64,000 nt of DNA, taken from the NCBI GenBank assembly GCA_001414485.1, contig LLEY01000076.1, positions 224,568 to 288,567 on the forward strand, in the 5' to 3' direction. The stretch is from Calycina herbarum. Its lineage: Eukaryota > Ascomycota > Leotiomycetes > Helotiales > Pezizellaceae. The first letter of the stretch is position 1, and each line of letters begins with the position of its first letter. The position numbers and the translations under genes were made by a program. Under the pieces are notes generated by a model. The model did no database searches. It had not been told where the DNA came from and saw nothing but the letters and a program-made list of their open reading frames with translations. This document shows, piece after piece, positions 8,014-41,221 of this stretch.

Positions 8014-11000
8014 TTATGCCTCCTCAGGAGAAGTGTAAACATCCTTCTTCAAAGCAACCCTTTCATCAGGCGAGAGTGGAATCCCAGTAATATCCTTTCG
8101 AAACAACTTCCCCGGCGGATTAACTGGAAGTCCTAATTCTTGCAGTCTACCATAACGACCTTGCCACTTTAAATGCACTCTCAGCAAAGGAGGATCATGA
8201 CCTTTACCCTTCCCGCCAGTTTCTGTCATCGGTAACTCAATTTCATCTGATCGATCGTTAGCTAATGTGTCTATCTCAGCAATGGGCCTCACTTACCATC
8301 AAAGCCATATATGAGACTCTTGTTAAGGAAGCTTGCTTCAACACCTGGAACGAAAGAAAAGGGAAGCCTAATTTTAGCAAGCTCCTTTTCAGCACCGACC
8401 ATGCGGTCGTGGACTTCGACATCGATGAACTTGCTGTTAGGAGCAAGTTCTATCACGAAAGTCTTGTTCCAGATCGGATTGTTGGTCTTTTCTGAGACCT
8501 CCGTTCTGAGCTCACCCAATCTTATGGAACCTCCAAATCGGTTCGGACCGTAGTACATTACTTTAGCAAGACATTTGGGAACTCGGAAGCTGGACTTGGG
8601 CAGGTTTGCAGCAGCGACCTGCAGGATCTCGGAGTCAGTATGGTTCTTTGGGTATATTTGAGGAGTAGAAGGAGCAAGAGTCTCAAGGACTGCTGTCGAA
8701 AGTTTAGGTAAGAGGAATGTCTCAGCTTTGGGATTTACGTAAAGTGACTATGTAAGAAAAGTGGGCATTGCTCTCCGACACCTGCTTTACTTGAAATTGT
8801 TTGAAATACTCTAGAACAATTATAAATATTGTTTGAGAAGGTTTAGAAGAATTAGAAAGTCGTTCTCTTGATTCTCTAAAACCCTCTAGAACAATATTTA
8901 CAATTGTGCGAGAATAGTCGCATAATAACATATAAGGCCAGGGAGTAATGACCGGGCGCCATTGTGGTAAAGTCTAGGATTTACCCAAAGAAGAAATTGA
9001 CTGGGAGAAGCTGGGTACTCACAACTGTGAACTCGATCGAATCTCGCTTCTCGCTTCCGGAAAGGACCTTTTCGGATTCCGCCCATTGTCTCAAAACTTC
9101 GAGGGATTCTCTTTGTATGTTTGGTTGTAGGCGATGCCAGTCTCGGCATCTAAATAACGCTTCGTCGATCTCGGTCCAACCTGCTATTTGCTTCTCTACC
9201 CAAGTTATTCTTGCAGCCATCATACTTTCTGTCCATGATTTCTCGAGGCTTCCCTTTGGACGAGTGATATATGTTCGACCAGGAAATACGATTGTCAATG
9301 CTTCCAGAATGCCCATTATATAGGTAAGCAGTCTGTAGTAGCTCTTCTGGACCAACGAAAAATCTCTCTCGGGCCACTGTAAACCAGGATCCAAAGCTGC
9401 AAGTGTGCTGATTTCAAAATCTAATTGATCCATGTCCGAGTGTCTCTCAATCTTAGAATTCAAAGGGTGACTGAAAGTCTGATTCTCCAACTGCGAGAAT
9501 TTATTCAGAGCAGTCGACATGACTTTCAAAGCTTGCAGGCCTTCGGCAACTATCTCCCAATCAGACTCGGTAGTTTTGTTCTCGAGAGATGTTCCAAACA
9601 ATCCATTCAATCTCTCTATCGTTTCTCTGCATCTTGGTACAGTTTCGTATGCCATGACTGTGAACGAATGCGGTTGTAATCGAGACACAATATCTTTGCG
9701 ACCCCGATATGTGTCTCGATTTTCTCTCGGAAGCCATGCCAGAGGCGAAGAGCTGAGTTCCGGATTATGTAACCTAGCATTTGCCTCATTCTCTATCGCC
9801 TTTTGGATGTAGCTTGAAAACTCGGCATCATTCACGGGATCTTCTCCGCTTTCTCCGCCAAATGTGTAGGGAGGTGGATCTGCTTTTGTTGCTGTAGGGC
9901 TCTCGACTGTTGTCAGGTCGCGTGCAAGTTTGACTAAGGGTTTAATTTGCTCATCGGCAGATATTAGGGATTCCAGGGCGTAATCAGGTCGTTGGGTTTG
10001 TTCATCGACGGGTATTAGGGATCCTAGGGCGTAATCAGGTCGTTGGGTTTGTTCATCGACGGGTATTAGGGATCCTAGGGCGTAATCAGGTCGTTGGGTT
10101 GGTTCATCGACAGGTATTAGGGATCCTAGGGCGTAATCCGGAAGGTCGTCCTGTGCTGGTGTTGGTGCGACCTCAAGTTCATCTCCACCTCCTTCCTTTC
10201 TATCCTTGAACCAATTATTGATGAAAAAGAACTCTTCCTGTAGAATATCTTTTGATAGACCATGCATTTGCAGCTCCAAAAATGTCCAGTCTGACGCAAC
10301 TGATGTTTGCGTTTCAGGGGGATCATTACCATGAATTTCTTCCAGGGCATTCCAAATTTTGTACTGCCGGTCTCTAAAAGTACAACATATTAGCAGCGTA
10401 AATAAAAGTTAAGCTGTTGCTGTTCTCCGTGTACGAAACATCCCGGGAAATCATAGCTATCCTCACGATGGACAGTAAAAGCGGTAGTAAATTTCCGGTT
10501 CATACCTGCCTACCTAGCTCGTTGTTCCAGCTATGGAAGGTAATTCAAGTAAATTACCTTGAACATTTAGAACAATTTAAAGTCTTAACCCAGATGGCTG
10601 GAACAATCAACTTCAATTACCCTAAAAAGTCGGAACAATGAGCTATGTAGGGCAAGTACGAACTTGATAGTTACTACCGCTTATATTGTCCACCAGGAGC
10701 TATTAATCGAGAAATTTAGAAGAATCGAGAAATCGAGTTTCTAACTCTTCTAAACCTTCTAAAATATTAACTTGAATGATTCTAGATGAATTCGCACAAT
10801 ATCTGGGGGGGAAAGTGAGGGAGGATAATGACAGAACCTCTTCCATCAAGTATACACGAAGTTAACTATATCTTCAGCTGCTTAAATGAAGCAAATCTTT
10901 CCGTGCCGTAAATCGTACATACCGTCGAATAAGCGCCGTGAATGCAGTAAGCTGACCCTGTGGATCCAGCTCCTTCTCTGTGATTGGCGAGAAGCCTTCT

Positions 11001-39259: not shown

Positions 39260-41221
39260 TCAATAGACCATATTGAGCTTCCACCCAACTTTCAAGACCC
39301 TTGCTGCGATAAGACAAGCGCAAGCTGCAGTGTAAGCTAGACCAGCGAAGATAATTACACCATCATAATTTCCACCATTGGCAGTAAGAACTTGACCCGC
39401 AATCGGGAGGGCTGTTAGCGTACCAAATGCAACAAGCTAAACAATCTCGGAGTCAGTATTATCCTTTCTAGAAGTATGTTTGAAGAAAATGAACCAGAAG
39501 CAGGGGAATGAGAAGAGGAAGTAAGGTGTCTGAGGAGGAAATGGTGTCTTAATCCTCCCGAAACCAATCGAAAGGGAGAAAAAGAACTCAGAGACTACCC
39601 ACCATCCAGCAAGTAGCGAAATATCTGCCATAGTGCTCTGTTTTGCACATTTGACCCACGCAGACTGGACTCAGGCTCAAGTTGCTTCCACTGACGAAAC
39701 CAAATATGACAGCGAAGACGACAATCATTGGTGTGGACTCTCCAGCTGGAAGCCAAAGTCCGAAGCAGGCGATGGCGCATAATGCGATAGAGATGATGAG
39801 AGTGTTTACTCTTCCCATCATATCAGCGACGACACCAGCAAGGAAACGTCCAAAGAAACTTCCTCCATTCAAGATTGCTAGGATCTGAAAACCGAATTTG
39901 TTTGAGTGACCGTGTGTAGTTGTATAATTTGTGATAAATGTTAGAGGGACGAATATTCCCCATTCCATGAGCAGTACTTTGTTTTCGAGTTAGTATTGCT
40001 ATTTCTAGAAGTAGGTCTAAGGAAGTAACGCTGCCTGAGGAGGAAATAGTGTCTTAATCCTCCTGAAATAACCGGAAAAAGAGAATAAGAACTCGGAGAA
40101 TACCTACTACCTAATGTTAACAAGGCGAAAGGAAGATCTTTTAAAGCCGAGAGATCTGGGGAGATCTCTTTCAAACTAGCCATCTTCTTGCGTGGTAATC
40201 GACTTCGGACTGTCATGTTCGCTATGACGAGCAGGACGAAAAGTATTCCGCCGAGTATGCGCATTGAGTTTTTGAAGCCAACCTTCGGAATTAGAGGTTG
40301 AAGTATGAGAGGGAATAGGATTCCTCCAATGCTGCCACTCGTCATCGCTATTCCGGTTGCATTTCCACGCTTTAGGTAAAAATAATGCCCTACGCTAGCA
40401 ACACAAGGAGAGACGATGAGACATCCCCCGATGCCATTGAGAAGACTGTAGACCATGAAGAAATGCCAGTATTCTAGAAAAAAAAAGTTAGCCGTGTAAT
40501 GATGGCGAAGAATCGAAGGGAGCTTACGGGTGCATTCTCCTAATAGAAACATGCTGAGTACTAATAGAACACTTCCAGCTAAAATCAGGACTCGAGGTCC
40601 ATAGGCATCGAAGATTGGTCCGACTGGTGCTCCTATACATGAGGATCTCGGAGTCAGTTTACTTCTTTGAAAAATATTCAAGAAGTTTCGAGTATGTCTC
40701 GGGAGTAAGAAAGAAACATAACCCGCGAAACCACCAGAACAGGGAAAAACTGCCCGAGAATATCACTTACCAAGAAAGAAGGTAGCGAAGAGACCGAGCC
40801 CAAAGATCCATCCTATTTGACTTGGTGTTTTATCTTTGAGCTGGTTTTGCTGGAAGTAATCGAGAAGAACAGCAGTGCTATTGATGATTCCGAAGACAGA
40901 AAAGCTACCACAGAATGCACCCGCAACAACACTCCATGCTTTCAAGCCGCCTTCTGGAAAATTATCCTTCTCCTCGAGGCCGGTGAGAGAACAGTTGTCC
41001 GATTGTGGCGTATGGTTTTCATCGAATAAACCCTTTTCATTTGCTGTTGTAGAGGTACTTTGAGTCTCAGTTACAGGCTTCCCCGCAACTGGACTGGCGG
41101 TTTCCTCTTTCACCCCGCCCTTTTCCACATCGTGGGATTGGACATTTGTGACGTCGACATCGTTATATTGGTATTTTATGAAGCTGCTGTCCTCAGCTAA
41201 ATTATGACCAATGTTATTCAT
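39260..41221 (-). CDS. MFS transporter, monocarboxylate-permease (MCT/Mch) type
   Basis: Twelve-helix secondary transporter of the plasma or vacuolar membrane. Exons 40771-41221, 40528-40632, 40111-40473, 39603-39976 and 39260-39436 join in phase to 489 aa. A hydrophilic N-terminus of about 90 residues precedes the conserved DNFPEGGLKAWSVV, then APVGPIFDAYGPR, GGCLIVSPCVASVGHYFYLK, RGNATGIAMTSGSIGG and GRFLAGVVADMMGR. The C-terminus RVLKVGWKLNMVY is typical of the family. Substrate cannot be inferred; fungal relatives are often annotated as monocarboxylate or riboflavin transporters. Introns 1, 3 and 4 are 134-166 nt and related in sequence, while intron 2 is an ordinary 54 nt. Confidence 0.9.
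39437..39602 (-). repeat. Introner-like intron A of the MFS gene
   Basis: Intron of 166 nt, donor GTGGGT, branch-like ATACTGACTCCGAGAT, acceptor TTTAG. It shares with intron B the block GGAGGATTAAGACAC, one mismatch, then ATTTCCTCCTCAG, plus AGTTCTT near the donor and CTACTTCTAGAAA-like sequence before the branch site. GGAGGA and TCCTCC form a small inverted repeat. Confidence 0.75.
39977..40110 (-). repeat. Introner-like intron B of the MFS gene
   Basis: Intron of 134 nt, donor GTAGTA, branch-like AATACTAACTCGA, acceptor ACAAAG. It matches intron A at about 28 of 29 positions in the GGAGGATTAAGACAC / ATTTCCTCCTCAG block and again in CTACTTCTAGAAA. It is shorter than A by an internal deletion after TTACTTCCT. 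Confidence 0.75.
40633..40770 (-). repeat. Introner-like intron C of the MFS gene
   Basis: Intron of 138 nt, donor GTAAGT, branch-like AAACTGACTCCGAGAT, acceptor TATAG. It shares TATTCTC near the donor with intron B, GGTTTCG with intron A, and the extended 3' signature ACTGACTCCGAGAT with intron A. It is more diverged than A and B are from each other. Confidence 0.6.

Follow-up and report, generated by a model that had tools for sequence, protein, structure and literature searches.

Introner-like introns in a transporter gene of Calycina herbarum and related families across its genome

The origin of new spliceosomal introns is an old question, and a genome with many young copies is a natural test for it. 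Introner-like elements have been described in the Dothideomycetes Fulvia, Dothistroma and Zymoseptoria (PMC4457414), where, according to the available text, they insert seamlessly and without duplications. For Xylariales, the accessible parts of PMC8469720 and PMC12403724 describe sister stwintrons and cropped sister introns, which are also seamless, lack a target-site duplication and occur in sense only; they also have complementary near-terminal arms able to join both ends and a long distance between branch point and acceptor. DNA-transposon introners (Gozashti 2022, PMC9860276) are repeated introns with imperfect inverted ends which create intron gains, and in the available part of that study the ascomycete introner families are outliers without terminal inverted repeats (TIRs) or target-site duplications (TSDs).

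The repeated introns of Calycina herbarum described here put introner-like elements in Helotiales. With the Dothideomycete elements of PMC4457414 they share the seamless, duplication-free insertion, although they come from another fungal class (Leotiomycetes) and the comparison is with the available description. The features named above for the Xylariales introns recur as well; however, as far as the accessible text tells, those are symmetrical twin introns, whereas the present elements are canonical introns, and the near-terminal stem proposed in PMC12403724 thus has a counterpart in canonical introns of another class. Like the DNA-transposon introners in the available part of PMC9860276, they are repeated introns with imperfect inverted ends which create intron gains, but they show no general TSD and carry both splice sites within the element, and they would fit the ascomycete group without TIRs or TSDs. 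A full-text literature search for introner together with Hymenoscyphus, Leotiomycetes or Botrytis, with the supplementary tables of PMC9860276 outside its scope, points to no earlier report from Helotiales; the sole co-mention with Leotiomycetes or Botrytis in the text covered was PMC3510045, which deals with Cladosporium and Dothistroma.

Three related introns in a major facilitator gene

The window, a stretch of 64,000 nt from contig LLEY01000076.1, contains on its minus strand a major facilitator gene (39260..41221, monocarboxylate/riboflavin-transporter-like; Pfam MFS_1, E 1.7e-41) with five exons, encoding 490 amino acids when the donor of intron B is corrected as given below. Among the matches listed, the best named relative of the protein is P0001 of Hymenoscyphus fraxineus (83% identity, 100% covered), and the next named ones come from Glarea, Cudoniella and Lachnellula. 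Three of its introns, all on the minus strand, are introner-like, namely intron A (39437..39602, 166 nt, phase 0) and intron B (39977..40107, 131 nt, phase 1, boundary from homologues) of family A/B and intron C (40633..40770, 138 nt, phase 1) of family C. In contrast to these 131-166 nt, the one ordinary intron of the same gene (40474..40527, minus strand) measures 54 nt; it is ancestral and not introner-like.

A sequence-only reading of the same DNA had proposed boundaries for introns A to C and a length for the fourth intron. Exon joining and homologous proteins confirmed its coordinates for introns A and C, and the length of 54 nt for the fourth one was correct. For intron B, which had been placed at 39977-40110 (134 nt), the homologues show 39977-40107. 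The donor at 40110 leads to the protein sequence TL-VLLMEW, one residue short of TLGIFLMEW in the homologues, and with the donor at 40107 (GTAGGTATTC) the missing residue is regained in phase 1. Because the first choice drops a residue which is present in the homologues, intron B starts three bases further in. The sequence sharing among the introns was found as that reading had described it. Introns A and B are identical at 28 of 29 positions of the block concerned (counted by eye), B and C have TATTCTC in common, and A and C share the 3' signature ACTGACTCCGAGAT, located by sequence match on the minus strand at 39444..39457 in A and at 40645..40658 in C. In intron A this signature comprises a branch-point-like ACTGAC and the 3' arm of a near-terminal stem, and in intron B the block is decayed. 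The fungal branch-point consensus is CTRAC, and by likeness to it we take ACTGAC to be the branch point.

To follow the introns in relatives, 34 homologous ORFs, mostly from metagenomes and 13 of them on contigs of at least 10 kb, were picked by hand from 120 listed matches. The site of intron B is uninterrupted in all 34, that of intron A in 31 (three are partial) and that of intron C in nine (24 are partial and one has a small gap). Introns A to C are therefore absent wherever an ORF covers the site, in a sample biased by the fact that ORFs split by these introns would be too short for detection. The 54-nt intron is read straight through, unspliced, in five of the 34 ORFs, which indicates that those ORFs derive from genomic DNA and that the intron itself is an old one. 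Judged from these alignments, introns A to C are missing at the homologous positions and are gains. In two homologues (P0030, P0033) the ORF ends near residue 438, and in two others (P0044, P0105) homology starts near residue 146. These ORF ends suggest other introns in the relatives, placed within a few codons of where A and C sit and possibly gained in parallel.

Copies, reading frames and junctions across the genome

The genome searched comprises 68.8 Mb in 379 contigs. Intron A as query gave at least 41 matches including itself, i.e. at least 40 further ones (the top one with 89% identity over 162 nt and E 1.7e-54), and intron B at least 49 rows including itself, both counts being lower bounds with 40 candidates scored in each search. 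Intron C gave 20 matches including itself, thus 19 further ones, of which the best-scoring is 85% identical. The 14-base 3' signature ACTRACTCCGAGAT occurs 130 times exactly, compared with one occurrence of the reversed control, and 309 times with at most one mismatch (control 27). Further matching introns thus exist for each of the three queries as well as for the signature. Profile searches of the fetched loci led to 81 distinct copies, of which 75 are full-length with splice signals (donors GT or GC, acceptors AG); five partial copies and L072, which has no CTRAC motif, were left out of the counts. Since ACTRACTCCGAGAT is carried exactly by 38 of the 75 and with at most one mismatch by 57, the genome-wide signature counts translate into probably a few hundred related copies in several families.

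An iterated profile of intron A reaches intron C (E 7.2e-5) and the layouts of both correspond, so families A/B and C look related, the profile match in itself being short of a proof of common descent. The proposal that the host gene gained its introns by copying is supported by these genome-wide families, but not the proposal of one source copy: by family assignment, the introns appear to come from at least two subfamilies (A/B and C). The closest pair of copies is 97% identical, and L036, L018, L023 and L030 form a cluster with 94-97% identity to L028.

As a second sample, 20 further listed signature sites were oriented by the signature and searched on that strand. All 20 match an element profile (E <= 6e-5, to which the signature itself contributes), in 15 of them one or more candidate donors (several were tried at some sites) leave the joined exons open over 75+75 nt, and four (L085, L088, L093, L101) show a further family, F. 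One 10-kb stretch picked without regard to copies contained none, an Rfam search of the window gave no match, and viral contigs searched with a 25-base core gave 0 matches. Copy classification, closest-pair identity, junction profile, arm pairing and the hairpin test are based on the first automatic splice-site picks. Later, the donors of L016, L046, L047, L048 and L053 and the acceptor of L057 were corrected by hand, and these picks were used for junction match length, open-frame test, branch distance, flank and paralogue comparison, target letters and near-terminal motifs.

The copies run in sense with open reading frames. When the flanks are joined, 58 of 75 copies give a frame open over 90+90 nt; on the antisense strand the same junctions do so in 20 of 75, and random placements within these loci in 29%. 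Without splicing, the frame stays open over this length in five of 75. Among the 61 copies with decidable phase, 36 are in phase 1, 14 in phase 0 and 11 in phase 2. Nine joined-exon peptides besides the transporter were compared with Pfam, and seven match a family, one of them below the curated cut-off. For a sugar transporter, a GH47, a short-chain dehydrogenase, an alpha-galactosidase and two GH28 genes the match extends over the junction; for a 2OG oxygenase it stops short. In a GPR1-like gene (L028) the junction codon is A|TG, and the resulting Met is the residue of the closest relative, Amylocarpus. Splicing of these introns is predicted from the splice signals and the frame-restoring joins. 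For introns A, B (corrected) and C and for L028, removal of a single GT..AG unit leads to a homologue-like protein, which rules out a [D1,2] stwintron in these four cases.

Landing is seamless at all three elements of the host gene (B corrected), in the GPR1-like gene and, by eye, at both sites in the polygalacturonase paralogues L003 and L016, where each gene has an element at a site which is empty in the other and the exon length is kept at both. The junction identity profile over positions -12 to +11 of 72 of the 75 copies, those with joined exons open for at least 45 nt on each side, revealed no duplication (z at most 1.5 compared to shuffled pairs). Junction matches have a mean length of 1.79 in all 75 copies compared with 1.70 after shuffling (P 0.05; two copies match over 7 bases) and of 1.56 compared with 1.50 in the 16 youngest copies (P 0.29). 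Between the upstream and downstream exon flanks of the 72 copies, neither the longest direct repeats (4.36, shuffled 4.21) nor the longest inverted repeats (3.99, shuffled 4.18) stand out. In L004, L006, L008, L052 and L060 the last three bases of the exon are those of the intron (by eye), and across the copies as a set, position -3 matches about as often as after shuffling (z 0.2). Junction profile and match length rule out a TSD as a general feature, beside which there may be a weak excess of junction matches. Because the closest pairs are 97% identical, the absence of a duplication is not due to decay.

Of the 75 copies, 46 have G and 20 have A at position -1, and the downstream exon starts with GT in 18 (background 4.7%). 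These letters divide by subfamily: an A|T site is found in 11 of 26 copies ending in CGYAG and in one of 49 others, a downstream GT in one of 25 and 17 of 50, respectively, and AYA|T in eight cases, all of the CGYAG class (background 1%). The class has 26 instead of 25 members where the acceptor of L023 was set back by three bases (A|T and motif counts only), and the target-letter tests, like those of the near-terminal motifs, were framed after viewing the data, with statistics that ignore the kinship of the copies. Fungal splice junctions are not known to favour A at -1 or T at +1, and for this reason the letters look like a choice of site rather than a requirement of splicing.

Composite introns with a passenger repeat

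In a C2-domain-like gene (domain by eye) on the minus strand, the window contains a composite introner-like intron of family F (8619..9022, 404 nt), which carries the 3' signature ACTGACTCCGAGAT by sequence match at 8626..8639 (minus strand) and is split by a repeat of about 234 nt (8739..8972, minus strand). This passenger, about 1.5 times as long as its host intron, has on both sides an imperfect direct repeat of 12 nt of element sequence (GTAAATCCTAGA / GTAAATCCCAAA, 10/12 by eye), and its core (about 8751-8957) has other copies in the genome at 77-84% identity. A second composite, L102 446-863 (418 nt), immediately follows an open frame. Over aligned letters the two are identical at 31 of 33 positions in the 5' part, 207 of 232 in the insert and 113 of 120 in the 3' part (94, 89 and 94%), gaps being ignored (17 nt for the largest in the 5' part, 30 nt for the largest in the insert). 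The similarity runs from GT to AG, and the flanks are unrelated except for the GT which opens both downstream exons. The simplest reading would be that the GT-to-AG intron was copied whole, passenger included. A passenger common to two unrelated loci marks the copied unit, a situation not met in the available text of the papers cited here. Two other repeats were seen nearby, a partial copy of the hairpin-rich passenger repeat at 10721-10786 (76% over 66 nt) and a short tandem repetition of GATTACGCCCTAGGATCCCTAATACC at about 9950-10180 (minus strand) within the open frame that precedes the composite intron.

Intron ends and the possible route of copying

The ends of the introns are partly complementary. 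In 53 A/B copies the mean pairing energy of the ends is -20.9 kcal/mol compared to -12.4 kcal/mol with a shuffled 5' arm, and in 20 C copies -16.0 compared to -9.9 kcal/mol; this test omits introns of 175 nt or more, which concerns two of 55 A/B copies. Arms from the same copy pair no better than arms from different copies in family A/B (P 0.51), which leaves the A/B stem without covariation support, and weakly better in family C (P 0.03). The 5' motif TCTCNGAGT (at most one mismatch) is present in the first 30 nt of 56 of the 75 copies, compared with 1.2% after shuffling and none of 75 in an inner control window; its partner ACTCNGAGA is present in the last 30 nt of 51 copies and both together in 44. 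In 65 of 74 copies the predicted branch-point A is 18-21 nt upstream of the acceptor. Compared with dinucleotide shuffles, the whole fold of intron C is significant (z -3.96), and those of introns A (z +0.29) and B (z -1.22) are not. An internal hairpin with 7/7 pairing is found in 44 of 55 A/B and 18 of 20 C copies compared with 24% of shuffled introns, the best hairpin being variable. In the fold predicted for intron A, the stem takes in the branch-point region, unlike that of the Xylariales sister introns as given in the accessible text.

Copying of whole introns is well supported by these sequence comparisons, and we consider it quite probable that introns A to C represent introner-like elements which multiply as whole introns, with reinsertion of excised intron RNA into DNA as the favoured route. 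The comparisons establish the families and their dispersal, the unit from GT to AG, a seamless landing at the sites checked and the absence of these introns in relatives, while splicing, an RNA intermediate and a role of the stem are inferred. The mobile unit is the intron, from GT to AG, which lands seamlessly in the sense strand of coding sequence and would then be spliced out, so that the protein stays unchanged. The ends of the excised intron RNA would be held by the short near-terminal stem, and the RNA would go back into DNA, either through reverse splicing where a site is transcribed or through ligation at a break, and would then be copied into DNA. The RNA route seems the likeliest one, although the subfamily target letters, which are not obviously given by sequence-blind reverse splicing, count against it. 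Against the role of the stem count the whole folds of A and B near the shuffled level and the A/B arms, which pair no better within their own copy. The marginally longer junction matches, the two copies matching over 7 bases and the second sample, with a suitable donor at no more than 15 of 20 sites, also count against the explanation as a whole.

The same target letters would be expected if copies arose during DNA break repair by template switching from a resident copy, guided by short matches between the target and the donor flanks and thus with subfamily-specific flanks. Both the A|T sites of the CGYAG-ended copies and the downstream GT of the others agree with this, and a DNA template would easily carry the passenger repeat. 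However, flank similarity in the youngest cluster appears to end after about 3-4 bases (by eye), and the exact GT-to-AG limits and the sense orientation would need extra selection; we regard template switching as rather unlikely. Non-autonomous, MITE-like DNA transposons with imperfect inverted ends doubling as introns, comparable to many algal introners, would also account for partly complementary ends and for subfamilies with target preferences, and most non-ascomycete introner families show signs of DNA transposons in the available part of PMC9860276. In the present copies the similarity to terminal inverted repeats is limited to the imperfect complementarity of the ends. These ends coincide with the splice sites, the copies have the orientation of open reading frames, and there is no general TSD in the 72 copies of the junction profile, in all 75 (where the excess is marginal) or in the 16 young ones. 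The 12-nt repeat around the passenger of the composite intron demonstrates that duplications are detectable in the same genome. A transposon origin of the introns is judged improbable.

Old introns of ordinary origin, or introns spread by gene duplication, are a very improbable explanation. Two of the loci, L003 and L016, are indeed gene paralogues, but their elements lie at different sites. The flanks of the copies are for the most part unrelated. Six locus pairs have similar 300-nt flanks, and besides this paralogue pair they include L006/L063 with a match of 31 nt and L046/L057 with a match over element sequence; the other three are presumably neighbouring copies. An old age of introns A to C is contradicted by the homologous ORFs, which do not have them where the sites are covered.

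As an extension of whole-intron copying, and a doubtful one, the landing site could be encoded in the intron itself, with the CGYAG subfamily directed to (A)YA|T and the rest to G|GT. Part of the intron RNA would read the target, the spliceosome or a remnant of it would carry out the insertion, and the whole intron would be copied even with a passenger. A likeness for such reading is given by group II introns, in which a segment of the intron RNA reads the target. A subfamily-specific target preference, which is not met in the available text of the cited papers, could separate the mechanisms.

Two details of the intron ends were observed in addition. Family A/B carries TTCTAGAAA near its 3' end, which resembles the palindrome WTTCTAGAAA of the Hypoxylon sister stwintrons in the accessible part of PMC8469720, although the latter is found at the centre; this likeness is possibly due to chance. 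A divergent C-like copy, L046 1742-1885 (plus strand), has a different yet complementary near-terminal arm, AGTCCCAG / CTGGGACT (by eye).
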